The notes beneath the pieces were generated by a model, which saw nothing but the letters and a program-made list of their open reading frames with translations, had not been told where the DNA came from and did no database searches. From positions 1 through 22,271 of the IMG/VR virus record IMGVR_UViG_3300030616_000086: a stretch of 22,271 nt of DNA; one strand, given 5' to 3'. Of this stretch, positions 1-22,226 are shown one piece after another (within the stretch, counting starts at the first letter, position 1; every line of letters starts with the position of its first letter). The position numbers were made by a program, and so were the translations under genes. The stretch is from a virus.

Positions 1-936
1 GTCCTCGCAGTACCCCGGCCAGTGGCCCGTTTCGACGCACTGCTTGTAGCGGTCAAAAGCCGTGCGCACCTTGATCGCGCCGACCTCCAGCATCGCCGGC
101 GACGCCCACACCGGTCTCGCGTCAAACGGCTCGTTGTCCTCCAGGAACACCCAGGCGAACAGTGGCCGAGTTTCCTCAATAGATTCCGCCGCCTCCAGGT
201 ACCACGCCGCTTGCATGTCCCAGCCGTAGTCGCGGATCGACTTCTGTAGCGATTCCTCGGTGGCCTTACCCACTTGGCACTTTTTCAGGTCGAGCACCGT
301 ATCGGGGCACTTCGCGCCGTGGATCCACTTGTCGAGCCGGGCCTTGCACGGGAAGCCGTCCTTGGACCAGACGATGGACACCTCCGCCCCGCCGTGCGCC
401 CGCAAGAGCTTCACAACCTTGTGGGCGAACACGCTGGCGACGATGCGTTCGATACGCCCAGCCTCAGCCGAATCAACGTAGTCAATCGGCTCCGTGGCGT
501 CGGGGAACTGCTTGCGGTGCGTGCCGCAATACCACTGGTGGTTGTTCGCGTCGTAGAATCGGCCAGCCGAGCCGCATGGCTGCCCTTTGCGTGGCCCCGA
601 CGCAACCGGCACCTTGCATGGTTGGGCGACGAGAAATTGCTTACGGAATAGGTCGGGCTCCAGCAGCCGACAATGCACGGCCCGGCCGAGCTTGCGGGCG
701 CGGCTGTCGGAGTCCAGCAGGCCGTCAATGGCCGCCTTGAGGTGTTTCGGGGACACCTGATAGCCGAGCTTCAAAGCCGAGGCGTTGAGCGCGGGCCACA
801 TCCGGTATTCCTCATACGGCACCTCGTACACGCCGGGCGCTGGGCACTCGGCCAGCCACTCGGGCGTGAATGGCTCGGGGGCGCCGGGCAGAACGGCGAA
901 GCTCGCCACCTCGTTGTCGTTGTGAATCTTCTTCAC
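1..936 (-). CDS. RecE-like PD-(D/E)XK exonuclease, 3' end outside window
   Basis: At least 312 codons are open and no stop is reached before the left edge, so the C-terminus is missing. The GTG start at 936 follows a GGAGG site and overlaps the previous stop as GTGA. The nuclease core is visible: E185, then D202 in ARLDKW, then LDLKK (D216, K218), and a QxxxY motif (Q242, Y246) in YGWDMQAAWYLE. This arrangement fits the RecE/exonuclease VIII-type nuclease domain (DUF3799-like), which resects double-strand ends for phage recombination. Between the N-terminal part and the core lies a Cys/His set (C107, C121, C137, H140; local motif QWYCGTH) that looks like a small zinc-binding insertion. It is the third gene of a csrA-led operon. 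A single-strand annealing protein, the usual RecE partner, would be expected further left. The family call is fairly sure; the biological role is inferred. Confidence 0.8.
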   Translation of the reverse strand, partial: MKKIHNDNEVASFAVLPGAPEPFTPEWLAECPAPGVYEVPYEEYRMWPALNASALKLGYQVSPKHLKAAIDGLLDSDSRARKLGRAVHCRLLEPDLFRKQFLVAQPCKVPVASGPRKGQPCGSAGRFYDANNHQWYCGTHRKQFPDATEPIDYVDSAEAGRIERIVASVFAHKVVKLLRAHGGAEVSIVWSKDGFPCKARLDKWIHGAKCPDTVLDLKKCQVGKATEESLQKSIRDYGWDMQAAWYLEAAESIEETRPLFAWVFLEDNEPFDARPVWASPAMLEVGAIKVRTAFDRYKQCVETGHWPGYCED

Positions 937-1259
937 AAGCGTGCCCTCCGTTCCGTGTCTGCCGCTCGCCGCAATTCCCAGTCCACTTCACACGCCTCCA
1001 GCATCGCGTCGTGGCAGTCACGCTCCGCTCCGCGCTCTTGCCGCTCAGCGTCGATGTTTAGGCCGGTGCCTTGCGAATAACGCAGCCACCGTTGCATTTC
1101 GATCCCGCCCGGCCCAATCACGTCCACCTCGACCTCTTCCAGCCGGGGCCGGCCGGTGATCTCGAAAGTGCCATCAGGGTTCCGGCGGTACGGCACCAGG
1201 AACAGCCAGGTGGCGTTTTCGTGCGTGTAGGTGTACTCCGCGCGATTGTCATGCGGCAT
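933..1259 (-). CDS. Small phage protein of unknown function in the csrA-recE operon
   Basis: This 108-aa protein is not recognised. Its ATG overlaps the csrA stop (TAATG) and its TGA overlaps the GTG of the exonuclease (GTGA), so it is almost certainly translated, coupled to both neighbours. The N-terminal half looks like a beta-rich fold (ENATWLFLVPYRRNPDG, then LEEVEVDVIGPGG). The C-terminal half is charged and probably helical (DAERQERGAERDCHDAML). There is no signal peptide or membrane segment. Its place suggests a role in early DNA metabolism or in regulation with CsrA, but that is only context. Confidence 0.75.
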   Translation of the reverse strand: MPHDNRAEYTYTHENATWLFLVPYRRNPDGTFEITGRPRLEEVEVDVIGPGGIEMQRWLRYSQGTGLNIDAERQERGAERDCHDAMLEACEVDWELRRAADTERRARL

Positions 1260-1639
1260 TACGCAGGCTCCTGTTCACGCAACACGGCTATCGCGGCCGA
1301 CAAATACTTTTGCGCCATCGTTAACCGCTCGCGACACAGCGGGCCAACAAACCCGGCGGCCTCAATCACCTGGCCGACCAAGCCGATGGCCGTGTCGCAG
1401 TGGCGCGCGGCCGTGTCTGGGTTGTTGGGCGAATCGTCGGTCGGCAAGTCGCCGGCCAGCGAATGCACGTCGCCATGCGCCTGCTGCAAGAGGTAGATTT
1501 CCTCGCGATGCACCGGCACCTCGGGCGGGGCGTCGATGCCGAGCCGGACCGCGTTGCCGCTCCGAATCTCGACCACGACGATTGTGATATCGTCGCCGAT
1601 TCTGATGGATTCGTTCTTGAGCCGCTGTAAGACGAGCAT
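1259..1639 (-). CDS. csrA: CsrA/RsmA-family translational regulator with C-terminal extension
   Basis: Residues 1-53 match the CsrA fold closely: it begins MLVLQR, has [13 protein letters not shown] and [18 protein letters not shown]. CsrA dimers bind GGA motifs in RNA hairpin loops, often over ribosome binding sites. The RNA-contacting residues L4, R6 and the Arg of VHREE (position 45 here, equivalent to R44 in E. coli) are kept. Usual CsrA proteins are about 60-75 aa. This one is 126 aa, with an added tail that starts with a polar linker (residues about 57-80) and ends in probable helices (region of [12 protein letters not shown] and [12 protein letters not shown]). The start is supported by a GGAGGA site. 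It is the first gene of an overlapping three-gene operon, preceded by a hairpin-rich leader and the integrase terminator. A regulatory role in the phage is inferred; the family assignment is secure. Confidence 0.92.
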
Positions 1640-1675
1640 GGTTGGTTCCTCCGTGAGTGTGAATGTCAGTCTAAA

Positions 1676-1741
1676 TTACCCGCGCCCCTCGCGTCGTGCG
1701 TGGCTCCCTCCTGGGCGTCCGGTCCGGGAGGCGCGGGGTAA
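1676..1741 (-). promoter_or_regulatory. Hairpin-rich leader upstream of csrA
   Basis: The stretch between the integrase stop and csrA has no gene. Besides the terminator listed separately, 1676-1686 (ttacccgcgcc) and 1730-1741 (ggcgcggggtaa) are complementary over 11 of 12 positions, with smaller C/G-rich complementarity inside. If transcription reads through or starts just upstream, this would fold as a long stem in the csrA 5' leader. I see no convincing -35/-10 pair. A regulatory role is inferred from position only. Confidence 0.35.
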
Positions 1742-1785
1742 AAAAAGAGAGCCCCCGGCGCGCCGCCAGTGGCAACGCCGAGGGC
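1740..1785 (-). terminator. Intrinsic terminator after the integrase
   Basis: On the minus strand GCCCTCGGCG (1785-1776) pairs with CGCCGGGGGC (1760-1751), ten pairs with one G-T, around a 15-nt loop. It is followed by TCTC and seven T (1746-1740). It lies 25 nt after the integrase stop and about 100 nt before csrA. It therefore separates integrase transcription from the csrA operon. Confidence 0.8.
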
Positions 1786-1809
1786 CCGGACCCGATGCGG
1801 CAAAATGAT

Positions 1810-2691
1810 TCACGGACGCGGCAGCGCTGCCAGCGCATCTAGGGCCGCGTCGCCGGTGTTCGCAATTCTGGGGTCGATGTAGTGCCTGACCGTAAGTTCC
1901 GGCCGGCAGTGACCGGCTTTCTTGCAAGCCAACTCGACCGATTCGCGAGCCGTGTAGCTGAGCGAAGTCCGGCGTAGCTTGTGGAAGAGGTCCTTTCGCT
2001 TGCGGCTGGCACTCAGCCCGGCCGCTTCGACGATCCGCCGGAATTGCCGCCAAAGGTGGACCATGGAAAACGGCCAGGGGAACAACCGCGTCCGGCGTGG
2101 ATCGTACATCGGCCGCAATGCGTCGACCGTCTGATCGGACAATGGACACCACTGCTCCGTGCGGTCTTTCTGGTTTTCGGCCCGTAGCACAATCCACGCG
2201 TCGCCCAGGTTGCAATCCGCCGGCTCCGTCGCCAACACTGCCCCGATTCTCCCTGCCGTATCGTAGACGGTCAGAATGAGAGCCCGCCAAAATGTCGACC
2301 GGGGCACGCCGTCCAGTGGCGCACCGCCGGCCGACTGGGAGGAAAGCAGTAACGCAGACACCTCTTGTGCCCGCCAGGCCACCGGCGCTCTCCTCGGTTC
2401 CGGTTGCTTGGGAATGAGCCGCGTGCGAGGCGGTGACGCCAAACCTTCGTCGGCCGCCGCACGCCAGAGTGTGAGTAACGCTCGCCGCCTGCTGTTGGTC
2501 GTGGCCGCCGCGTGAGTCTTGGCGTAGTCGGCCAATCGTTCGGCAAGCCGTCGTTCGGTCAGTTCGACCAGCGGACAATCCAATAGCCGAGCCGCGACCG
2601 CAAGCTGCTTTGCCGATCCTTCGGCCAGCGGCCGCGTCGGAAGATAGTACCTCGACAGGTACTCGCAGAATGTGATCGCGGAGCCTACCAT
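1810..2691 (-). CDS. int: Tyrosine recombinase (phage integrase)
   Basis: This 293-aa protein has an N-terminal SAM-like core-binding region (residues about 5-95) and a C-terminal catalytic domain with the full active-site set: R148 in DTAGRIG, K175 in ENQKDR, H237 and R240 in HKLRRTS, H261 in AGHCRPE, and the nucleophile Y271 in TVRHYIDP. It is slightly short for a phage integrase and seems to lack a separate arm-binding domain. The ATG at 2691 has only a weak ribosome binding site, and an in-frame stop lies four codons upstream. It sits beside an excisionase-like gene and a tRNA-like sequence, the classic arrangement for site-specific integration into a tRNA gene. A second, longer open frame over the same bases (1676-2851) lacks these motifs and was set aside. 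Confidence 0.92.
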   Translation of the reverse strand: MVGSAITFCEYLSRYYLPTRPLAEGSAKQLAVAARLLDCPLVELTERRLAERLADYAKTHAAATTNSRRRALLTLWRAAADEGLASPPRTRLIPKQPEPRRAPVAWRAQEVSALLLSSQSAGGAPLDGVPRSTFWRALILTVYDTAGRIGAVLATEPADCNLGDAWIVLRAENQKDRTEQWCPLSDQTVDALRPMYDPRRTRLFPWPFSMVHLWRQFRRIVEAAGLSASRKRKDLFHKLRRTSLSYTARESVELACKKAGHCRPELTVRHYIDPRIANTGDAALDALAALPRP

Positions 2692-3035
2692 ATTGCACGC
2701 TCAGACAGTGTGCCCCGCTTTTGGCCGAACGGCCGATGCTGAAAGTATAGGCCACAATGTGGCTGTATCTTCCAGGCGCAAAAGCAGGGGCGTACAGTGA
2801 GCGCGTCATGCAGGCGCATCCGTGCCCGAGGCCAAGCCGTAGCCAGGGCAAAAGGGTCCGGTTGTGCCGGATCGCGGGGCTGGAGCGGAAAATCGCTGGC
2901 CTGAGTCTGAGTCACGGCCCGGCTTTACGGGCGGCCGACGTTAGATTCCAAAAGGTGCTCCGTGTTTCCGGTCGCACCCGTGCCGCAAGAGGCGGCGTGA
3001 GGTGCCAGGTTTAATTAACGTGACCGATTTTAGCG
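2692..3035. other. Intergenic stretch between xis-like gene and integrase
   Basis: About 340 bases without a supported gene. A minus-strand frame at 2685-2915 (76 codons) and a plus-strand frame at 2757-3014 are open, but their products are Arg/Pro/Ala-rich, have no ribosome binding site and no recognisable family. The A/T-rich patch near 3011-3050, containing ttaattaacgtg and two copies of agcgt in tttagcgttagcgtgaat, is unusual in this G/C-rich window. It may hold integrase or excisionase binding sites or the int promoter. I cannot define one. Confidence 0.4.
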
Positions 3036-3275
3036 TTAGCGTGAATCGCCGTCAATAGGAGCCGGCGGATTTTTCGCGGGCCGACCTGGACCCTTGCTCT
3101 GTTTCTCTCGCACGGACCGGAAACGGTGAATCTCGGCCACTGGCACGGCCCAGGCGCGTGCGTTGAGCTTCTGCCCGGCCAAATCACCTTTTCCGAGAAG
3201 CTGCCTCACACGACTGTCTGTGAGCCCCAGGAGAGACGCCGCCTCTTGGACGCCGACGATGGATGTGTCGATCAT
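3036..3275 (-). CDS. Excisionase-like helix-turn-helix protein
   Basis: 79 aa from the ATG at 3275. An earlier in-frame ATG at 3284 is only one base from the GGAGG site, while the one at 3275 has a ten-base spacing, so the later start is preferred. Residues about 6-50 form a MerR/excisionase-type winged helix-turn-helix: GVQEAASLLGLTDSRVRQLL is the HTH, followed by a wing with AWAVPVAEIHRF. The C-terminal tail carries GPGRPAKNPP, which resembles an AT-hook (GRP core) and would add minor-groove contacts. Located between the integrase and the tRNA-like site, it most likely acts as the recombination directionality factor or as a small regulator of int. Which of the two cannot be told from sequence. 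Confidence 0.75.
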   Translation of the reverse strand: MIDTSIVGVQEAASLLGLTDSRVRQLLGKGDLAGQKLNARAWAVPVAEIHRFRSVREKQSKGPGRPAKNPPAPIDGDSR

Positions 3276-3323
3276 GGTTGACATGCCTCCACCGTACCGT
3301 TACCGTGAAAATACGTCAAGAGA

Positions 3324-3393
3324 CAACCCGAGGTGGTAATTCGGCCCTAGCACTTGCCGCCCGGCCATTACTGGTTACGGCCACCTCGGGTTG
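3324..3393. repeat. 13-bp perfect inverted repeat beside the attachment region
   Basis: CAACCCGAGGTGG (3324-3336) and its exact reverse complement (3381-3393) are separated by 44 bases, between the xis-like gene and the tRNA-like sequence. It has no T-tract on either strand, so it does not look like a terminator. By position it could be a pair of integrase or excisionase arm-type binding sites, or an RNA stem. Function unknown. Confidence 0.6.
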
Positions 3394-3399
3394 CCTCAG

Positions 3400-3447
3400 T
3401 GGCGGGGACAGGATTCGAACCTGCGACCTCGAGGTTATGAGCCTCGC
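3400..3447. other. attP: Putative attP core within the tRNA 3' half
   Basis: Phage integrases commonly recombine within the 3' part of a tRNA gene, and attP then carries a copy of that part. Here the well-formed segment from the anticodon stem to the discriminator base lies 125 bases from the xis-like start and points its 3' end towards xis and int. Phage structural genes lie on its other side. That geometry fits attP, not attL or attR. The exact crossover cannot be seen without the host tRNA gene. Confidence 0.45.
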
Positions 3448-3480
3448 GAGCCACCTGACCATTTAGCGGCATACCCCACT
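3400..3480 (-). tRNA. tRNA-Met(CAU)-like sequence with abnormal D arm
   Basis: Read on the minus strand, the 3' two thirds are a good tRNA: anticodon stem CGAGG/CCTCG with loop CTCATAA (anticodon CAT at 3437-3439), a five-base variable loop, T arm GCAGG-TTCGAAT-CCTGT and 3' acceptor strand CCCCGCC plus discriminator A. CCA is not encoded. The 5' side is doubtful. Its end (AGTGGGG) pairs with six of the seven acceptor bases, but the first pair is A-C, and 27 nt separate the acceptor and anticodon stems where about 19-22 are usual. GCCGC/GTGGC could still form a D stem. It is either an unusual phage tRNA (Met, or Ile if the C is modified) or a tRNA 3' part carried as an attachment site with a decayed 5' half. 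Confidence 0.55.
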
Positions 3481-4060: not shown

Positions 4061-5224
4061 TCACCTCAGTGCCGGGCACAGCCACTGGCACCACAAGTGC
4101 CAATCGTCTATCACGAGTGTCGAGCCGCTGTCCGTGCCGTCACCGTCGATTTTCGCCTGGATCGTCGCCTCGGTGCCGGCGTCTGTGACGAGCATCGCGG
4201 CAGCGTTGAGCGTGCCGTCTACTCGCGCAGACCCGTTTCGGTATCCCATCTGTGTCCCCTCCAGGTCGCCAAAGCGGATGGTCCCCGCCGTGGCACTCAT
4301 CGCGGCACGGAAGAATACGTCGCGGTTTGCGCCGTCCCAAAGGCTGTAGGTGTGGTAATGCCCATCCGCCGTTGAGGTGTTCGTCTCGTCGAAGTCTGGC
4401 GTCAGGCAGCTTGTGGCGTGCCACTGGACGTGCAGCCCGATCAGCCACGTGCCCGTGTAGTGGAACTTGATGCACGGGTCGCCGTAGTCCGTGACATTCA
4501 TCATCGTCGCAAGGGATGACGCCGACACGCGGCCATAATAGTCTTGCGGCTTGAGCGAGCCGTAAGTCGTGTAGCCCGAATCGAGAACAATCTTTGTGCT
4601 GCCAGGGACGATAATGAGCGGCGGTGCGCTGTGATCGATCCCGAGGTATCGCACCCAATACACATCATAGGTCGGGGCTGGATCGGCGTCGGGGTCGGGC
4701 CGCACGTCGCTCGGCCCGGCCGAGATGATCACATACCGCTGCGGATAGTATGAGTTGTAGCGACTCGTCGACCAGCCTTCATCGTTTTCAATCGCCCGCA
4801 ACCGGAAGTCGTCGTCTACGTTATTCGTCGGCCCAACGATGTCGCCCGCGCCCAAGTCACGATCCGCGCGGGCAAGCGTCGGCCAATGCTCGCCCGTGCT
4901 GCATGTGCCTGATTCGTTGCGTAGCACTTCGGACGATCCATTGATGTAGACCATCATGCGCTGATACAAGTAGCCCGTGCCGGTGTCGATCTCGCGGCAT
5001 GTCAGCGTGGTCGGATTGCCACTACTGGCCGCATGCCCACGGATAATCCCATAGGCTGGACAATCCGCGTAGAGCATCCGAAACGGTATCTTGCGCTCTT
5101 CTCCCAGCGTGTGCGGCGTGCGCCTCGGTACGCTGTGCGTCGACCCCTGAATCCCGCGCTCGACGTGCTTGACCGCTCGCACGATCCGCCGCGCACCGTC
5201 CTTATCGAAAACGGTTCCGGCCAT
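4061..5224 (-). CDS. Tail-tip or fibre protein, possible C1q/TNF-like C-terminal domain
   Basis: 387 aa. The ATG overlaps the previous stop (TAATG). The N-terminus (residues 1-25, FDKDGARRIVRAVKHVER) is charged and helical and may attach the protein to the virion. The middle part is rich in Tyr, Ser, Asp and Gly and gives no family. Residues about 252-270 (FHYTGTWLIGLHVQWHA) followed by a beta-rich stretch resemble the start of C1q/TNF-like jelly-roll domains, which form trimeric tips of phage fibres. This resemblance is weak and judged by eye. As the last gene of the late block, after the tape measure and two other tail genes, it is probably part of the receptor-binding end. The structural role is likely; the fold is uncertain. 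Confidence 0.8.
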   Translation of the reverse strand: MAGTVFDKDGARRIVRAVKHVERGIQGSTHSVPRRTPHTLGEERKIPFRMLYADCPAYGIIRGHAASSGNPTTLTCREIDTGTGYLYQRMMVYINGSSEVLRNESGTCSTGEHWPTLARADRDLGAGDIVGPTNNVDDDFRLRAIENDEGWSTSRYNSYYPQRYVIISAGPSDVRPDPDADPAPTYDVYWVRYLGIDHSAPPLIIVPGSTKIVLDSGYTTYGSLKPQDYYGRVSASSLATMMNVTDYGDPCIKFHYTGTWLIGLHVQWHATSCLTPDFDETNTSTADGHYHTYSLWDGANRDVFFRAAMSATAGTIRFGDLEGTQMGYRNGSARVDGTLNAAAMLVTDAGTEATIQAKIDGDGTDSGSTLVIDDWHLWCQWLCPALR

Positions 5225-6393
5225 TACGTCGCGTCCTCACGAATAACAGTAGTGGCAAACACGCCCTTCGCCAGCGTACCGAGCGACCGGCCCGACGTGA
5301 CCTTGAAGCTGTCGAGGTACATCTTTTCCTCTTCCGCGCCCGCGTCACGCTGGAGGCAGGCGATGGGCTGGACCATCGTGCTGCTGGCGATGTTCGACAT
5401 AACAACCGTCGCGCCGCTCTGCTCGGTGCCGTTGATGTAGAACTTCACGTCGGCCAACGAAGAGAAGTCTATCCGAAAATGCGTCCAGGTGTTGTCAACC
5501 AGGTCGGCCCCGCTGTCCTGGTCGTCCGTGTCCGTACTGCCGTCGTCGGCCTCAACCAAGATGTTCGCCGAGGTGCCTTCCATGCGGAACCAGGCCGACG
5601 TAGCCACCGCGTCTAGATCGTCTTCGGCATTGGTGTGGGCCGAACAGACGCCCAATACAAGCCGCTGGTCGGCCGAGCCCAGGGCGTTGGTGCCGGTCAG
5701 GTCCAGTTTTGCCCGCCACTCGACAATAGGCCGCTCGAACAGGTCGATCCACAGGTTATCCGACGTGAACAGTTGCGTCGACTGGGCCTCGCTGTCCGAA
5801 CTGTTGATTAGCGAGTACACGCCACAACCCGAGTCCGTCACATAGTCCTCGGTGCTGTTCGCCGTTTCCGCGTCCACCGCCCACAAGGCCGGCAGCGTGT
5901 CCCCGGCGTCGGCCACGAAGTCCTCGACAAGCGCGAAGTCGTCCGCGTCGGCCCCGTTCGGCAACACGATCACCTCCAATACGTCGCCGTCTGCCAGCGT
6001 GCTTGTGCTTACCGTGCCGGACACCAGCGTGTATGCAGTATCGGCCGAGTCGATCTCAACCGGGCTTGAAAGGATCGACGTGCCGTTCTTGTGTAGGTCG
6101 ACGTCCACGGTTGAAGTGGACGTACACGCGACAACCGCCCCAACCTCGAACGCCACGATGGTCCCCGTGCTGCCGTACACGGTGTGAATCACCTGCGAGT
6201 CGAACGCCGCTGTCTGGTCGCTCGGCTGCGCGTAGGTCTTGCTTGTCTGGTGCTCCAGCTTGGTAGCCGCGATGGCAGCCGACGCGGATACCTTGGCGTT
6301 TGTCACCGTGCTGTCGGGCAGCGTCACGGTATCGTTGAACACGACGTCATCCATGAAATGCTGCTCGCCGATTATTCGGGAAGGTTCGGCCAT
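5224..6393 (-). CDS. Tail fibre/adhesin with LamG/concanavalin-like lectin fold
   Basis: 389 aa, very acidic and rich in Thr, Ser, Ala and Asp. The N-terminal part carries the segment LPDSTVTNAKVSASAAIAAT, a type of linker I associate with phage fibre and head-fibre proteins, then a beta-rich domain up to about residue 155. Residues about 215-340 look like a laminin-G/concanavalin A-type beta sandwich: VEWRAKLDLTGT, SAWFRMEGT, and NTWTHFRIDFSS followed by VKFYINGTE. Such domains bind glycans, which suits host recognition. It lies 16 bases after the preceding gene and overlaps the following one at TAATG. The upstream bases (aggagtcaagac before the ATG) give a good ribosome binding site. Fibre role is inferred from fold and place. 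Confidence 0.82.
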   Translation of the reverse strand: MAEPSRIIGEQHFMDDVVFNDTVTLPDSTVTNAKVSASAAIAATKLEHQTSKTYAQPSDQTAAFDSQVIHTVYGSTGTIVAFEVGAVVACTSTSTVDVDLHKNGTSILSSPVEIDSADTAYTLVSGTVSTSTLADGDVLEVIVLPNGADADDFALVEDFVADAGDTLPALWAVDAETANSTEDYVTDSGCGVYSLINSSDSEAQSTQLFTSDNLWIDLFERPIVEWRAKLDLTGTNALGSADQRLVLGVCSAHTNAEDDLDAVATSAWFRMEGTSANILVEADDGSTDTDDQDSGADLVDNTWTHFRIDFSSLADVKFYINGTEQSGATVVMSNIASSTMVQPIACLQRDAGAEEEKMYLDSFKVTSGRSLGTLAKGVFATTVIREDAT

Positions 6394-9934: not shown

Positions 9935-10024
9935 TGTTCTTCACCATGCACGTCCCGGCCGTGCTGTTGCCGTCTGTGAACACGCGGGCGAGCAGTCCGG
10001 GGAAACTGCTTTTCGGGGGCTACC

Positions 10025-10543
10025 CTAGCCCGCGTTTAGCTTATTGATTGCCTTTTGCACTTCCGCTCGCATGACTCCTAGCGCCACGTCGCTTGACGCG
10101 CTCATGGCTCGCCGCAGGAATGCACGCGGTGCGGTATGCTTCGTTCCTCGTTCAACAAGATGCGCGTACTTAGTCGGGTCGCGATACTCCATCGACTCGG
10201 CACGCATTGCCGCCTTGCCGCTGGTTATGTCCTTTTTGCCGACGGCCTTCATGTACTTGCCGCGCTTCTTTGATTGCTTTTTCTCGACCAATCCACCCAT
10301 GCCTTTGCGCGGCCCGATTGTTGCGCCGATAACCATGCCGTCGCGGCTCATCCACACCCGATGGCCGAGCGACCTTTTCAGCAAGCCCGAATCTTTCACG
10401 ACGGTTTGCTTTGCAGCTTTGACGACGAGTCGCGCCGCCTTGGTTACGCCAGTTCGCAGGGCCTTGTTTTGCAGCTTGACCGGCAACGCTTTCAGCGCGT
10501 GCAGTAGTTCCTTTTCGCCGTATAGCTTGCCTTCAATCTTCAT
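10025..10543 (-). CDS. HK97 gp10-like neck/tail-joining protein
   Basis: 172 aa from the ATG at 10543, which overlaps the preceding stop as ATGA; the longer in-frame start at 10741 would lie inside that gene. It begins MKIEGKLYGEKELLHALKAL and is very basic (KAARLVVKAAKQTVVKDSGLLKRSL in the family's helical region), with the conserved end YAHLVERGTKHTAPRAFLRRAM. This text is typical of the HK97-gp10 family, small proteins that complete the head-tail interface. It forms a cluster with the closure and tail completion genes upstream. Function follows from family and context. Confidence 0.9.
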   Translation of the reverse strand: MKIEGKLYGEKELLHALKALPVKLQNKALRTGVTKAARLVVKAAKQTVVKDSGLLKRSLGHRVWMSRDGMVIGATIGPRKGMGGLVEKKQSKKRGKYMKAVGKKDITSGKAAMRAESMEYRDPTKYAHLVERGTKHTAPRAFLRRAMSASSDVALGVMRAEVQKAINKLNAG

Positions 10544-12107: not shown

Positions 12108-12719
12108 CTATGGACTTGGTGATCGGAAACTGTATTGACTCAACAGCACGCGGGCCGCCCGCGGCATATCAATCGGGTTCCACTGGCTGGGCCGCCCGGC
12201 GTCCTCGTCACCTCGGTTCGTCGCCAGGTGAGCGACGATCAACTTCAATGCGTGATTGATCGCGTCGGGCACGTCGCTACCCGAAGTGCCGTAGCCGCAC
12301 TTGTACGTCACCTTCACGACGTCCGCGTGCGCCCGAGGTGTCGGCCAGCTCTGGCCATACTTGAGCCGCACCACACCAACGCGGCTCGGTGCTCCCAGTT
12401 CGTATACGTCCGATGAAAGTGTCTGGGTGTCGCCGGCCGTGTCGGTGTAGGTGATTTCGGTTATGGAGTCAGTGGGCGGGTACGGCAGAACGATCTCGGT
12501 CGGGAAACCATCGAGGTGCAAGTCCCACGTTTGGTCGATAAAACGGCTCCACGTTTCCGTTTCTGCCATATCCACCGCGTTGTCGATAAGCGTGTTGAGG
12601 TACGCATCGCTATCAAAACTGTCCGACCCCGCCGCGTCGTCCCATCGCAAGTGGGTCTTCACGTCGGCAAGCACAATCGGCGTCGTGTCCGGTGCAGTAT
12701 TAAGTACCAGCTTGGACAT
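12108..12719 (-). CDS. Head-tail connector (gp6-like adaptor)
   Basis: 203 aa. It begins KLVLNTAPDTTPIVLADVKTHLRW, the typical start of phage gp6-like head-tail connector proteins, followed by the helix DAYLNTLIDNAVDMAETETW, the segment QTWDLHLDGFPTEIVLPYPP, the strand SITEITYTDTAGD, and a C-terminal helix in VPDAINHALKLIVAHLATNR. The protein forms a ring under the portal. A GAGGG site lies before the ATG at 12719. A small gene overlaps its first 20 bases, and the fibre-like gene follows after 13 bases. Confidence 0.9.
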   Translation of the reverse strand: MSKLVLNTAPDTTPIVLADVKTHLRWDDAAGSDSFDSDAYLNTLIDNAVDMAETETWSRFIDQTWDLHLDGFPTEIVLPYPPTDSITEITYTDTAGDTQTLSSDVYELGAPSRVGVVRLKYGQSWPTPRAHADVVKVTYKCGYGTSGSDVPDAINHALKLIVAHLATNRGDEDAGRPSQWNPIDMPRAARVLLSQYSFRSPSP

Positions 12720-12861
12720 TGTTCACCCTCTGCCGTCGCTTACGCGGCTTGATTTCCTCGGCTATTCCGCGACGGATAAGCACGTTTGCTACGCCGTCCG
12801 GTCGCTCGCACGTGTCACCCACCCGCAGCCGCCGCCATGCTCGCAGTATTCGCAGTTTCAT
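12700..12861 (-). CDS. Small 53-aa phage protein between sugar gene and connector
   Basis: Short frame starting ATG at 12861 and ending TAA at 12702-12700. The product starts MKLRILRAWRRLRVGDTCER and continues PDGVANVLIRRGIAEEIKPR, then a basic tail. The pattern 'G-D-x-x-x-x-x-D-x-V-A-x-x-L-I-x-R-G-I-A-E' is, from memory, common among tiny proteins near head-tail connector genes of many phages. It overlaps the end of the upstream gene by 47 bases and the connector start by 20. The ribosome binding site is poor (AGG, eleven bases away), so coupled translation is likely. Function is unknown; a small neck or scaffold part is possible. Confidence 0.6.
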   Translation of the reverse strand: MKLRILRAWRRLRVGDTCERPDGVANVLIRRGIAEEIKPRKRRQRVNNVQAGT

Positions 12862-13483
12862 TGAGACTTACCTTTTTCACGTTGTCCCCGTCGATCTCGA
12901 AGTTGAGCCGGCCGTAGAACACGAACTCGATATCAGGGCACGCCGCGACACACGACCGCCAGAACGGCCCGATGTAAAGCGTGGTATGCTGGAATGCCCG
13001 CTTGTTGCGTACCGCACCGCCTTCCCAGTAGTCGCCGCCGTTGTCGGTTTGCGGCATGTTGCTCACGTAGCCCTCGTGGCCCGGCAACAGCATCCGCGTG
13101 CACCCGTTGGCAATCGCGAACTGGGCGCAAAACAGACCAGAGAACATGCAGTCGGTGTAGCCGTCGCGACTGAACTCGACATTGCCGCCCGGCCCCGTCA
13201 CCTCCATCGCGTGGTCCGGTTCGGGTATGCCGCGATCTTTCCACGCGCTCGGCACTCGCTTGAGCGTTATCAGTTGCAGGCCGTGTGTCCTGCGCAGGTC
13301 ATTGGCTCGCCGCGCAAACTGCTTGCAGGCGGTTTGGTCGCTGAGAAAGTAATAGTCGGGCACGCACAGCTTGATGCCGCTGTTGGTCGTGATGACGGTT
13401 GGCTCGGGGTACTGCTGGAGTGCACGCATGAAGCCAGCCGGTGCGGTATGCGATGAACCCAGGTTTAGCCAGGTGGTATTCAT
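12815..13483 (-). CDS. DUF115-like, possibly sugar-related protein
   Basis: 222 aa. The ATG at 13483 overlaps the synthetase stop (ATGA), with GGAG nine bases upstream. Visible parts are an N-terminal Rossmann-like start (WLNLGSSHTAPAGFMRAL), TNSGIKLCVPDYYFLSDQ in the middle, and GLFCAQFAIANGCTRMLLPG near residue 130. The order 'naming strand, PDYY-x-x-SD, then G-x-x-C/A...A-x-x-x-G...L-x-G' recalls DUF115/MAF-like proteins, which are linked to nonulosonic sugar transfer on flagellin. The likeness is weak and by eye, but the neighbour is a CMP-sugar synthetase, so a role in moving such a sugar is plausible. No membrane segment is visible. The Ala-rich C-terminus overlaps the 53-aa gene. Confidence 0.7.
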   Translation of the reverse strand: MNTTWLNLGSSHTAPAGFMRALQQYPEPTVITTNSGIKLCVPDYYFLSDQTACKQFARRANDLRRTHGLQLITLKRVPSAWKDRGIPEPDHAMEVTGPGGNVEFSRDGYTDCMFSGLFCAQFAIANGCTRMLLPGHEGYVSNMPQTDNGGDYWEGGAVRNKRAFQHTTLYIGPFWRSCVAACPDIEFVFYGRLNFEIDGDNVKKVSLNETANTASMAAAAGG

Positions 13484-14139
13484 GGGCGTGGCTCCAGTAG
13501 GAACCGGGCGTATTCCAGGTCGGCCGGTTCGTCCACGTCAACGTAAGGCGTGGTCACCTCGACGAACGACACACGCCCGCCGATAAAATACCCCGTCCTA
13601 GCGAAGTAATCGCAACGCGAAGCAAACGGGCCACCGGCGAGCCGGTACTCTTCGGGCGCGTCCTGGCGGCGGCTCTGGTCGTGGGTGTAGATGGGCACGC
13701 CGTAACCGTCCGGTGCCTTTCGCCATAGGTAGACCGTATCGCGTTGCACGGTGATCGCCGTATCCGCCTCGTGGACGACCAGGGCACGCACCGCTCGGTC
13801 GATCAGGTCCGGTGTCTGGCACGGGTTGGTGCACTCAAGCACCACGACCACGCCGGGCTCTTCCGCTATCGCGTCCAATGCGTGTTCGATAACCGGGGCC
13901 GTAAGCACTTCGTCGGCGGCCAGTTCCGCCGGTCGGTCGATAACCTCGGCCCCGTACTCGCGAGATACGGCGGCAATCTCCGCGTCCTCGGTGGAAACGT
14001 ACACGGCGTGTATTGTGGTCGCCGCTCGGGCCGCATTGATAGCTAGCCCAACAAGCGGCACGCCGCTGATCGTCTGAAGGTTTTTACGCGGGATGCCCTT
14101 GGAACCACCACGCGCCGGTATGATCGCCACTGCGTGCAT
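13480..14139 (-). CDS. CMP-sugar (acylneuraminate-type) cytidylyltransferase
   Basis: 219 aa from the ATG at 14139; a longer in-frame start at 14292 adds sequence without family likeness. The enzyme joins CTP to a nonulosonic acid (sialic, legionaminic or pseudaminic type) or a related acid sugar. Family marks are the nucleotide-binding IPARGGSKGIPRKN at residues 7-20, VYVSTEDAEIAAVSREYGAE, TNPCQTPDLIDRAV in the place of the usual QPTSPLR segment, SRRQDAPEEYRLAGG (the RRQD-x-P-x-x-Y signature) and the C-terminal VDVDEPADLEYA. Length is normal for NeuA-like enzymes. It lies inside the head gene cluster and is coupled to the next gene. Which sugar is used cannot be read from sequence; KdsB-type enzymes lack the RRQD signature, so NeuA/PseF/NeuA-like is preferred. 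Confidence 0.88.
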   Translation of the reverse strand: MHAVAIIPARGGSKGIPRKNLQTISGVPLVGLAINAARAATTIHAVYVSTEDAEIAAVSREYGAEVIDRPAELAADEVLTAPVIEHALDAIAEEPGVVVVLECTNPCQTPDLIDRAVRALVVHEADTAITVQRDTVYLWRKAPDGYGVPIYTHDQSRRQDAPEEYRLAGGPFASRCDYFARTGYFIGGRVSFVEVTTPYVDVDEPADLEYARFLLEPRP

Positions 14140-14213: not shown

Positions 14214-14672
14214 TCACACGCGAAGTATTTGCGAGATACCGCGCTCCGTCGCGGTGAACGGAGGTTCTTTCGCTCGCGACAACTCCGCCCACACCACGTA
14301 ATAGCCGCCGGCGGTTCCGTCGCCGACGGTGATCGTTGCGTCCAGGTATCGCTTGCGGTATCGCAAGTCGATCTGAAACTCAAAGAACTTGTCATCGTCG
14401 GTGGCACTCGGCAGCGTGGACGTGCTGCCCGCCACGTTCGTGCTGGTGCCGAACACCAGGCCGGTCACGTCGGCGTGGCTGGTGCCAGAGGTGTCCGACT
14501 CGGTGATCTTGGCCGCCGTGCACGCGATGTCGGTCGCACCGAGCAAGAGGACAATGGTGCAATAATCAAAGCCCTTGGTATCGAGCTCGGCCACGGTCAG
14601 TGATGCGTTGTCAACCAGCGCACCCGGCGCGGTCAGCAGCACCCGCTTGGTGCCCACTTGTGCAGGATTCAT
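14214..14672 (-). CDS. Small structural protein following the major capsid gene
   Basis: 152 aa from the ATG at 14672, chosen because CAAGGAAAG lies nine bases upstream; an earlier in-frame ATG (14744) has no such site. The protein is beta-rich, with MNPAQVGTKRVLLTAPGALV at the start, DYCTIVLLLGATDIACTAAK in the middle and FFEFQIDLRYRKRYLDATIT plus GGYYVVWAELSRAKEPP near the end. I recognise this general type, unnamed, from positions just after phage capsid genes, where it is often a decoration or stabilising protein. The family is not certain. It is preceded by 74 bases after the capsid stop. Confidence 0.75.
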   Translation of the reverse strand: MNPAQVGTKRVLLTAPGALVDNASLTVAELDTKGFDYCTIVLLLGATDIACTAAKITESDTSGTSHADVTGLVFGTSTNVAGSTSTLPSATDDDKFFEFQIDLRYRKRYLDATITVGDGTAGGYYVVWAELSRAKEPPFTATERGISQILRV

Positions 14673-14746
14673 AATTGGCTTTCCTTGTGTTGGTTTTTCG
14701 GGAAAGCCGGGCGCGGGACCAGCCACGCCCGGCGTAAGGGACATGG

Positions 14747-16087
14747 CTAGCTGGACGGGGTGGCCAGCATAATGACCGGGCCGGCGTTGGAGGTGTCACC
14801 AACGTCATGCACGTTGATGTCCACCCGCTCGGTGCCCTGGATGGCAATCTGCCGATACTCGAAGTACCGGCTCGAATCGGCCTCAACCTGGATGCCTTGG
14901 CGGCTGCCGAGGGTCGTGCCCATCGACAGGTCGCCAAAGTAGGCGAGCCCGTTCGTCGAGGTCTGGGCGCCCAAGGTGCTGTTCATAATCTGCACCTTGT
15001 TGACCGGGTAGCCGAGGAAACTGTCGGCCCGCTTGCCTTCGATGTCGGTCGTTGTGTTGCCGCCCGCCGCGTCGGCCAACCGCATCATCGACGCGGCCCA
15101 GCCGGCTTGGCTGATATACCATTCCGGTCGGATGCCGGGGTACATCGGCAACATGCCGATCATTTCCTCGAAGTCGGTCAGGTCGAGCGTGCTGAATGCC
15201 GTGTTCGCGGTTGCGGCCGTCGACACGGTCGCGGTCGCCGCAGCACACGCCGTTATCAGGCCGACCGTGCCGCCGTAGGTGCTGGTCCCGTCACCGAGGA
15301 ACAGCATGCGGTCTTCCTTTTCGGCGAACGCGAGGGCAATCTCGCGCGCCACGATTCCCGCGATGTCGATCACGGCGTCGGTCGCCAGTTCCTTCGATAG
15401 CCGGGTCAGCGTGGCGATGGTCCGGCAGACCAACTGCACCTGGTTGAAGGCGAGTTCGCTTTCGGTCGTCGCGCTGTCTTCGCCCACGAAGTAGGCAGTC
15501 AGGCCAGAGAGCCGGCGCGGCACCACAAGCGTGTCGCTACCCATCGGGATCACGTTACACTTACGGCGTGCCGTGCCGTACTGCTCTTGCAGGTCGATGA
15601 TCGACATGGAGTATTCGGGCGGAATGAAGATGCCGCCCTCGCTATCAACCGAGCCGGTCATGGTGAGGTGCTGGGCCCCGTAGTCGTCCAGCCAGCGCCG
15701 GGCGGGGGCGTGCCCCATGAGGTGAGCCAAGCACCATTGACCGCTGGCGTAGGCCGTGCCGGCGTCCGGCAGGCCGTGGAGGTTGGCGCGTCGGGCTACG
15801 GCGGGAATACCATCACCGCTCGGCTGGCCCTGGTTGCCCAGGTTGTCGGGGGTCGTCCGGCGCGGGGCGGGCGTGTTGAGGAATGTGGTACGGGCCGCCT
15901 GTCGGTCGGCCAGTGCGTCGGCCTTGCGTTTGGCCTCGATTTGGGCCTGGAGGTCGTCGCACTTCGCTTCGAGCTCCGTGACTTCCGCCGACTCTTCCTT
16001 GGTCAACGCCCGGTCGGCGTCGACTGCCGCCTTCAGAAGCTCGTCGATGCGAGCGGTTGCGGCCTTCAGTTGTTCTGCCAAGTCCAT
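14747..16087 (-). CDS. Major capsid protein, HK97 family
   Basis: 446 aa. The start at 16087 is chosen over 16153 because GGGA lies upstream and the text MDLAEQLKAATARIDELLKA is the usual beginning. Residues about 1-70 form the charged coiled-coil delta domain (scaffold) removed by the prohead protease, followed by a Pro/Gly-rich linker with RRTTPDNLGNQGQ, where cleavage probably occurs. The capsid fold follows with SIIDLQEQYGTARRKCNVIP, LVVPRRLSGLTAYFVGEDSA, RLSKELATDAVIDIAG, KEDRMLFLGDGTSTYGG and the E/P-loop and A-domain text at the C-terminus (SRYFEYRQIAIQGTERVDI). The family call is strong. Two hairpins lie just upstream. Confidence 0.95.
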   Translation of the reverse strand: MDLAEQLKAATARIDELLKAAVDADRALTKEESAEVTELEAKCDDLQAQIEAKRKADALADRQAARTTFLNTPAPRRTTPDNLGNQGQPSGDGIPAVARRANLHGLPDAGTAYASGQWCLAHLMGHAPARRWLDDYGAQHLTMTGSVDSEGGIFIPPEYSMSIIDLQEQYGTARRKCNVIPMGSDTLVVPRRLSGLTAYFVGEDSATTESELAFNQVQLVCRTIATLTRLSKELATDAVIDIAGIVAREIALAFAEKEDRMLFLGDGTSTYGGTVGLITACAAATATVSTAATANTAFSTLDLTDFEEMIGMLPMYPGIRPEWYISQAGWAASMMRLADAAGGNTTTDIEGKRADSFLGYPVNKVQIMNSTLGAQTSTNGLAYFGDLSMGTTLGSRQGIQVEADSSRYFEYRQIAIQGTERVDINVHDVGDTSNAGPVIMLATPSS

Positions 16088-20551: not shown

Positions 20552-21022
20552 TCATCCCACCACCTTTAGAAAACGCCCCTTGCCCTCGGGGGCTTGGGGC
20601 TTCGTTGCCGTAACCCGCGACCGACTGGAAGGTGTCAGCCCAAGCTCGGCTGCGAATGTATTCATCTGTTTTAACGCCATACTCAAAATGCTCACGTACG
20701 GCGAGCAAAACGGCATCTTACTTTTCGGACTTATCAACACGGCCCCGTACTTCTGCACGTCGGCCGATGCCTTCACGTACAACCCCCACGCCTCACAGTA
20801 GCCCGCCATCACAGCCCGGTCGGCTCGGGTGAGCGTGCCGGCTTCCGACAGCATCTTCGCCAGGCGCTTCCACTCCGCCTTCGCTTCCTTGCCTAGATGT
20901 CGCGGACAAGTTGGGGCCGTGCGGCCGTAGTCGGGCTCGGCCTCGTTGTATGCCCGCTTGCCGGGGTTGCCCGCCAGCTTGTGGTATGCCGTCGGTTTCG
21001 GTTTTGGTCCGCGTTTAGCCAT
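20552..21022 (-). CDS. terS: Terminase small subunit, P27 family
   Basis: 156 aa. It begins MAKRGPKPKPTAYHKLAGNPGK, the standard start of P27/Terminase_4 small subunits, followed by the helical core with CPRHLGKEAKAEWKRLAKML, GTLTRADRAVMAGYCEAWG and the segment YVSILSMALKQMNTFAAELG and SSRSRV at the end. It recognises the packaging site and activates the large subunit. Its start overlaps the end of the methyltransferase gene by eight bases. Confidence 0.93.
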   Translation of the reverse strand: MAKRGPKPKPTAYHKLAGNPGKRAYNEAEPDYGRTAPTCPRHLGKEAKAEWKRLAKMLSEAGTLTRADRAVMAGYCEAWGLYVKASADVQKYGAVLISPKSKMPFCSPYVSILSMALKQMNTFAAELGLTPSSRSRVTATKPQAPEGKGRFLKVVG

Positions 21023-22226
21023 CGGTCAACCTCGGTGTCAGGTCAGCGTCTACCGCCCGCTGGAGGATCACCGCCACGTACTTGGGGGCAATCTCAACCC
21101 CGTAGCAGACGCGGCCGAGTTGCTCGGCTGCGATGAGGGTGGTGCCGGAGCCGAGGAAGGGGTCTGCCACAATGTCGCCTCCCCTTGTATGGTTCTGAAT
21201 GGCGCGACCAAAGAGCGCCGTGGGCTTCATTGTCGGGTGTTCTCGGGATGCCTTCGGCCGGTCGACCTCCCACATGGTGGTGCGTGTGCGGTCGGGGTTC
21301 TTCAGGCGATCCCCGTTGGTCCATCCAAACAATATCGGTTCATGTTGATAATGGTATTCAGAATGTCCGAGGACCATTGAGTCCTTCCTCCACACCATAA
21401 TTTGCCGCAGGATGCCCCGACGTTTCCAGTCCCCGGCAAACAGTAAATGCAACGGTCCGGGCGGGACCGTTGCAAACCAATACGCACCCGGACGACTCAC
21501 CACCTCCCCCCAGTCAAACCACTTCACTATGCGAGCCGCCAGCTCCTTCTCACTACAATCGTCGTTCGCTATTGTCAACGCGTCCTTGGTTTTGCCCACA
21601 TACGACACGCCGTAGGGTGGGTCAGTCACAAGCATCGCTGCCACCCCTGGCCACGGACACCGTGTTTCGCGGTCCCCGCACAGCACCCGATGCGTACCCG
21701 CCCTCCCCGGAATCTCCCACAACTGGCCAAGCTCCACCTTCCATTTCTTCAGCAGTTCGTCGGCCCGGTCAATCTGCGGTTCGGGGTCCGGCGTCTCGGC
21801 CCCGCTCTCGAATAGGTCAATCCCCTCCCCCGCCGCCAACTCCCCGAGCATCTTTTCCACGCCCTCGTTGTCCGACTCGATCCCCGCCAGCAACTCGCCC
21901 AAGGCCTGCTTGTTCGCCTCGGCCATCGCGGCCAGCGGGTCTAGCGTCGCAAGCAGCTTGTCCGCTTCCTTGGCGGTCAGGTCCAGTACCAACACCGGCA
22001 CTTCCGTATCCGGCGTCGTCTCCGCTCTCAGGTGCCCGTCGATCAACTCCAGCTTGCCGCCCCGCAGTTCTCGGGCCAGCAAGGCGTCCGCATACCCGAT
22101 CTCGGCCAGCACGCCCTTGAGCGCGTCCCGCTGGGCCTGGGGATGCGTTCGCCTTTTTTTCTTGTTCGGCTGAAGGTCCCGCGCCTTCACCCGCCGCAGT
22201 TCCTTGATCCGGTCCTGAACTTTCAT
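21015..22226 (-). CDS. ParB-like domain fused to DNA methyltransferase
   Basis: 403 aa. Residues about 12-100 form a ParB/Srx-type nuclease-like fold (KARDLQPNKKKRRTHPQ, LARELRGGKLELIDGHLRAE, VPVLVLDLTAKEADKLL). After an acidic linker comes an amino-methyltransferase: VTDPPYGVSY (DPPY at 202-205), YHYQHEPILFGW, HPTMKP (330-335) and DPFLGSGTTLIAAE (355-361), with DPPY before FLGSG as in the beta order. The product would be N6-methyladenine or N4-methylcytosine; the target site cannot be read. Such fusions are frequent beside terminase genes in phages and may mark packaging sites or protect against host restriction. The ATG at 22226 has no clear ribosome binding site. The gene upstream is outside the window. 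Confidence 0.92.
   Translation of the reverse strand: MKVQDRIKELRRVKARDLQPNKKKRRTHPQAQRDALKGVLAEIGYADALLARELRGGKLELIDGHLRAETTPDTEVPVLVLDLTAKEADKLLATLDPLAAMAEANKQALGELLAGIESDNEGVEKMLGELAAGEGIDLFESGAETPDPEPQIDRADELLKKWKVELGQLWEIPGRAGTHRVLCGDRETRCPWPGVAAMLVTDPPYGVSYVGKTKDALTIANDDCSEKELAARIVKWFDWGEVVSRPGAYWFATVPPGPLHLLFAGDWKRRGILRQIMVWRKDSMVLGHSEYHYQHEPILFGWTNGDRLKNPDRTRTTMWEVDRPKASREHPTMKPTALFGRAIQNHTRGGDIVADPFLGSGTTLIAAEQLGRVCYGVEIAPKYVAVILQRAVDADLTPRLTDG

Follow-up and report, generated by a model that had tools for sequence, protein, structure and literature searches.

An overlapping pair of genes, one for a CMP-sugar synthetase and the other for a divergent glycosyltransferase-like partner, lies within the head gene cluster of a 22,271-base virus record (the window, meaning the whole stretch of DNA analysed). 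To judge from its sequence, the pair is probably expressed late and activates a sialic-like sugar, which it then transfers, most likely to a virion protein. For a broader reading the chances are about even: a temperate lineage of Planctomycetota phages may decorate the proteins of its own virions with nonulosonic acid by means of this head-operon unit, which is a two-domain enzyme in several members, and may form a self-sialylating particle. We infer the catalytic activity, the sugar, the acceptor and the benefit of the pair from its genes. None of the cultured phages searched here is described as having such a sugar-activating and sugar-attaching pair among its capsid genes.

Table 1. Features of the module, its flanks and the integration region in the window.
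Feature	Position	Strand	Size or evidence
CMP-nonulosonate synthetase, NeuA/PseF-type (sialic-like sugar)	13480..14139	-	219 aa; PF02348, PDB, TIGR03584, motifs
Partner: divergent MptE-like/DUF115 (Maf-like) domain, probable CMP-sugar-dependent glycosyltransferase	12815..13483	-	222 aa
ATGA stop/start overlap of synthetase and partner, 4 nt	13480..13483	-	sequence
HK97-type major capsid protein, candidate acceptor	14747..16084	-	PF05065 8.3e-38; phrog_10 6.8e-53
phrog_5707 gene	14214..14744	-	phrog_5707 2.7e-10
Head-tail adaptor gene, other flank of module	12108..12719	-	PF05135 1.4e-5; phrog_442 3.8e-25
Tyrosine integrase	1810..2691	-	PF00589 2.8e-6
3' part of tRNA-Met gene beside integrase	3400..3460	-	RF00005 38.3 bits, shortened D arm

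The minus-strand gene order begins with a ParB-like/DNA methyltransferase gene, TerS, TerL, portal, a 345-aa ORF and the major capsid gene, continues with the phrog_5707 gene, synthetase, partner and head-tail adaptor, and ends with other connector and tail genes (among them the tape measure) and an integrase at the left end. The 345-aa ORF has no convincing family match and is probably the maturation protease by position. The module is thus flanked upstream by the phrog_5707-type and capsid genes and downstream by the adaptor, and the ATG of the partner shares its bases with the TGA of the synthetase, an overlap that suggests translational coupling of the two. The preliminary description had placed a NeuA-like synthetase with all key motifs and an overlapping partner between capsid and connector genes, and each part of that placement is borne out. 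The phrog_5707 protein is a possible acceptor or decoration protein, and the tyrosine integrase suggests that the phage is temperate. The packaging cluster opens with a ParB-like N-terminal part fused to the DNA methyltransferase (21015-22226, minus strand).

The synthetase scores 77.4 bits against the cytidylyltransferase model PF02348, above its cut-off of 22.6 (E = 1.8e-21), and its best PDB matches are CMP-NeuAc synthetase structures (up to 4.5e-26, vs 2.3e-7 for KdsB). Its top NCBIfam match is the PseF model TIGR03584 (4.2e-31), with 108.3 bits against an equivalog cut-off of 205.7; no NCBIfam equivalog cut-off is reached, so that these matches assign a type of enzyme rather than a particular sugar, and a distant likeness to KdsB also appears in NCBIfam. 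The motifs IPARGGSK, KN, STED, RP, RRQD and DVDEPADL are intact, with “AGG” following RRQD where the solved synthetase 6ifd has “NG”. The catalytic motifs ARGGSK, KN, RP, RRQD and D-x-D are retained in nearly all 16 phage copies.

The partner is more divergent. Alone, the window protein has no Pfam or NCBIfam match and nothing convincing in PHROGs, and the PF01973 gathering score is not reached by it (no match) or by any of 15 family members (best E = 0.058). A profile built from these 15 sequences (alignment A3) nevertheless aligns by hhalign with 14 MptE-like/DUF115 (PF01973) domains at a probability of 94.7 over 139 collinear columns, vs 0-0.6 for five column-shuffled profiles and 0.1 for reversed profiles. 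Structure prediction from the single sequence gave a pLDDT of 33, and an AlphaFold model built with A3 reached a pLDDT of 88.8 and a pTM of 0.87. The matches of this model in the viral structure library BFVD are uncharacterised phage proteins and several proteins annotated as MptE-like/DUF115, the latter mostly at probability 1.00 with TM scores of 0.48-0.59; a PDB structure search returned only weak, generic Rossmann folds. From the hhalign match, the model and its structure matches, and the fusions and gene context described below, the partner is a divergent DUF115-type (MptE-like/Maf-type) domain, as had been guessed from the letters alone.

A second set of matches points to sialyltransferases, although the E-values are weak on their own. 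Of the eight PDB sequence matches of the partner profile, the best seven are Campylobacter CstII-type entries (E = 0.16-0.41), falling on the SG..A..G..I.L.G.D.Y stretch, and the only PHROG match, in two of the 15 members, is phrog_4603, an alpha-2,3-sialyltransferase (best E = 0.003). Like CstII of family GT42 (PF06002), the partner has an SG..A..G..(I/V)..G...Y...Y stretch, aligned by profile search, in which its two tyrosines occupy positions where CstII binds the phosphate of CMP. Membership of GT42, which these matches suggested, was rejected because the partner matches 18 GT42 sequences poorly over the whole profile (hhalign 7.8%, 32 columns). Nor does an invariant His follow the tyrosine motif in the 15-sequence alignment, as conservation of the GT42 catalytic His would require; N34, Y139 and Y152 are invariant or nearly so. 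In a solved Maf structure, the Maf_flag10 domain (pfam01973) is described as resembling Cst-II (PMC11339370), and this reconciles the CstII matches of the partner with its MptE-like/DUF115 match. The MptE-like family, as its name indicates, includes archaeal pterin diphosphokinases, and the fold alone is therefore no proof of glycosyl transfer.

Relatives were sought among 2.9 million viral contigs, which were queried with the synthetase; the partner profile was then run over the ORFs of the fetched loci. A single-protein search with the partner matched no viral contig, and relatives were reached first through the synthetase and later through partner alignments. Loci were thus collected through the module genes, several of the contigs are short, and the counts that follow describe module carriers rather than the whole lineage. 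Both genes occur in 15 distinct related contigs (16 counting one identical pair), a recurrence far beyond chance, and every contig with the partner has the synthetase. The two are fused in six (L002, L003, L005, L010, L013/L014 and L017; in L002 and L003 synthetase and partner-like domain lie within one continuous ORF), adjacent in eight and separated in one by a pair of sugar-related genes. Among separate neighbours, the synthetase comes first in the window, L006, L007, L009 and L016, and the partner in L015, L018, L057 and L062. In L170 a methyltransferase and a glycosyltransferase (phrog_1962, 8.7e-11) stand between the two genes. L007 and L170 were reached through the partner, and the synthetase was still beside or near it. 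These six fusions, with adjacency or near-adjacency in the rest, support one functional unit.

In all relatives seen, the module lies inside the head cluster of the same kind of phage, at varying locations. As far as the contigs extend, it follows the phrog_5707 gene and precedes the adaptor in the window, L002, L003, L005, L010, L013, L017 and L016; it comes after the adaptor in L006, L007 and L009, between portal and capsid in L015, L018 and L057, and between terminase and portal in L062 and L170. Where contigs extend that far, the phrog_5707 gene comes after the capsid gene in most relatives, and in the majority of module-bearing contigs its protein shows 49-64% identity. A tree of 121 synthetases places the 16 module copies together, with one long-branched cellular row alongside, and requires at most two label changes. 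Protein distances of synthetase and partner are strongly correlated (Mantel r = 0.79; none of 5000 permutations as high), whereas capsid distances correlate at r = 0.33 with the synthetase and r = 0.50 with the partner; a nearly exclusive synthetase clade that covaries more with the partner than with the capsid supports the unit further. Third codon positions are more divergent than first and second positions in all pairs compared. The tree grouping, distance correlations and codon pattern together indicate that the pair moves as one unit that is old in the lineage and under constraint. Distant prophage loci in Planctomycetota share the capsid/phrog_5707 order but lack the module, which is therefore not required for assembly as such. 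A search of 50,697 phage records matched the partner to none and the fused protein to just one, labelled Moritella viscosa.

Some neighbouring observations concern gene structure in these contigs. The L170 module spans 752-3370 as four genes (partner, methyltransferase, glycosyltransferase and synthetase) between terminase and portal. In L018 (3139-3738), the reading frame of the partner domain stays open for about 200 more residues upstream, and this extension matches nothing in Pfam. NeuA genes and GMDFYE-motif proteins occur in L044, L066, L078 and L048, where the latter match an iterated partner profile; they were rejected as members of the partner family because they are too distant, and are possibly a second, separate family of phage sialyltransferase-like proteins.

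The partner profile has a single match in 392 Planctomycetota genomes (E = 3.9e-5), in the C-terminal part of a multi-glycosyltransferase protein of >2,000 aa with a NeuA-HAD protein and NeuB nearby. The partner is absent, among the matches listed, from the 80 best cellular synthetase loci, and L154, considered as a cellular fusion of the pair, was dismissed since it has no partner-profile match.

In the proposed mechanism, the synthetase would use CTP to convert a host-made nonulosonic acid (sialic, legionaminic or pseudaminic-like) to a CMP-sugar, from which the MptE/Maf-like partner would move the sugar to an acceptor. Fusion and gene overlap suggest that the intermediate may be channelled between the two. 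The likeliest acceptor would be a protein of the virion (capsid, phrog_5707 protein or a tail protein). Its O-glycosylation would take place in the cytoplasm, either ahead of assembly or while assembly proceeds, in the manner of Maf enzymes acting on flagellin. Maf enzymes O-glycosylate Ser/Thr of flagellin with nonulosonic acids (PMC11339370). Support for this function comes from the matches of the partner (the MptE-like/DUF115 profile, the local CstII motif, the sialyltransferase PHROG and viral DUF115 structures), from the extra glycosyltransferase and methyltransferase of L170, and from the sole Planctomycetota match lying in a giant glycosyltransferase near NeuA and NeuB.

Most CMP-sugar synthetases and CstII-like enzymes work in the service of surface glycans, and the pair could accordingly modify a glycan or protein of the host cell surface, for example to block further phage adsorption or the sticking of progeny to debris. 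The apparently temperate lifestyle of the phage, and the location of the cellular homologue in a cluster of glycan genes with NeuA and NeuB, would fit such a role, which is the main alternative but which we nonetheless regard as unlikely: in the relatives seen the genes never leave the late head operon, whereas conversion genes usually lie at a prophage end, and no flippase, anchor or membrane gene accompanies the pair. A virion acceptor is favoured over the host surface by this position and by co-inheritance with head genes, because the unit stays in the late head operon even where it is placed differently and, in the material seen, has no membrane or flippase gene accompanying it.

It is distinctly improbable that the pair works with another sugar or acceptor, such as KDO, another CMP-sugar or a small molecule handled by an MptE-like enzyme. 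The distant KdsB-likeness of the synthetase and the pterin diphosphokinases among MptE-like proteins point that way, as does the acceptance of CMP-KDO by some Maf enzymes (PMC11339370); NeuA-type structures, however, match the synthetase far better than KdsB does, and fusion to a CMP-sugar synthetase favours a CMP-sugar donor. That a bacterial surface-glycan gene was inserted recently and by chance beside an unrelated neighbour, with no phage function, is scarcely credible. Stray genes do get into phage genomes, and these searches found the pair in only about 16 contigs of 2.9 million, but the six fusions, the gene overlap, the single deep-branched clade and the greater variation at third codon positions speak against it, and conservation already refutes it. 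The preliminary description had named just such a random insertion with an unrelated partner as the outcome contrary to its own reading; the module proved instead to be conserved, fused in relatives and old in the lineage.

The 3' part of a tRNA gene beside an integrase is a usual attachment core, and the tRNA-Met fragment of the window is probably such a core. Its 46 nt occur exactly in 8 of 246 Planctomycetota genomes, vs 0 of 289 genomes of a control phylum, and the host is therefore probably a member of the Planctomycetota; phylum names of genome sets derive from the titles of the loci whose genomes served as centres. Prophage-like relatives of the capsid protein, 32-36% identical, were found in 3 of 294 Planctomycetota genomes; identity to cultured phages reaches about 25%. 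As candidate host phyla, Chloroflexota (201 genomes) and the phylum of a Lentisphaerae genome (195 genomes) gave no match to the capsid protein. No sugar-making gene was found among the window proteins scanned, in agreement with the preliminary description, which had supposed that the sugar is taken from the host and proposed looking for nonulosonic acid synthesis in host genomes. A NeuB-family match occurs in 131 of 149 Planctomycetota genomes and is strong (E below 1e-30) in 60 (~40%), including three of the four att-bearing genomes in this sample. The host phylum can thus supply the sugar, and host supply in this phage is consistent with these counts.

By profile comparison, the partner belongs to the same domain superfamily as the Maf flagellin glycosyltransferases (Maf_flag10/MptE-like, PF01973, DUF115); it is likewise expected to use a CMP-nonulosonate donor, and cytoplasmic protein glycosylation is a known Maf task. 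Unlike Maf, it consists of one short, phage-borne domain of about 200 aa that Pfam does not detect; it is often fused to a CMP-sugar synthetase and lies among head rather than flagellar genes. The synthetase shares family, motifs and expected reaction with NeuA/PseF, but the phage proteins form their own clade, below the PseF and other equivalog cut-offs, and are fused to a transferase-like domain in relatives. The literature searched for phage sialic acid synthetases yielded nothing relevant. Mycobacteriophages Che8 and Rita have capsid proteins with glycans and phage glycosyltransferase genes (Freeman et al. 2023, cited in PMC11256854). Virion glycosylation with phage-encoded enzymes would be the shared feature, predicted here from genes. 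In the related phage Maravista, however, the glycosyltransferase genes lie near the genome 3' end, the hosts differ, and no CMP-sugar synthetase or DUF115 domain is mentioned.

Few cases of phage virion glycosylation are known, and none with sialic-like sugars as far as found here. A compact, often fused, capsid-linked synthetase-transferase unit would offer a direct test case for particle glycosylation in masking, stability or adsorption to host glycans. It would tie the Maf/DUF115 family to virus assembly and provide a small natural enzyme for protein sialylation, and the tRNA-Met site gives a host lead (Planctomycetota) for a lineage without a close cultured relative.

Other features of the window lie outside the module. 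An int-alpA RNA (Rfam RF02996; 44.5 bits, gathering score 35.8) at 9970-10035 on the minus strand sits between connector and tail genes, away from any integrase. The ORF at 1259-1639 (minus strand) resembles, as read by eye, a CsrA-type RNA-binding regulator. The tail-region protein at 5224-6393 (minus strand) has a concanavalin A-like (Laminin_G_3) domain and is a possible glycan-binding tail part.
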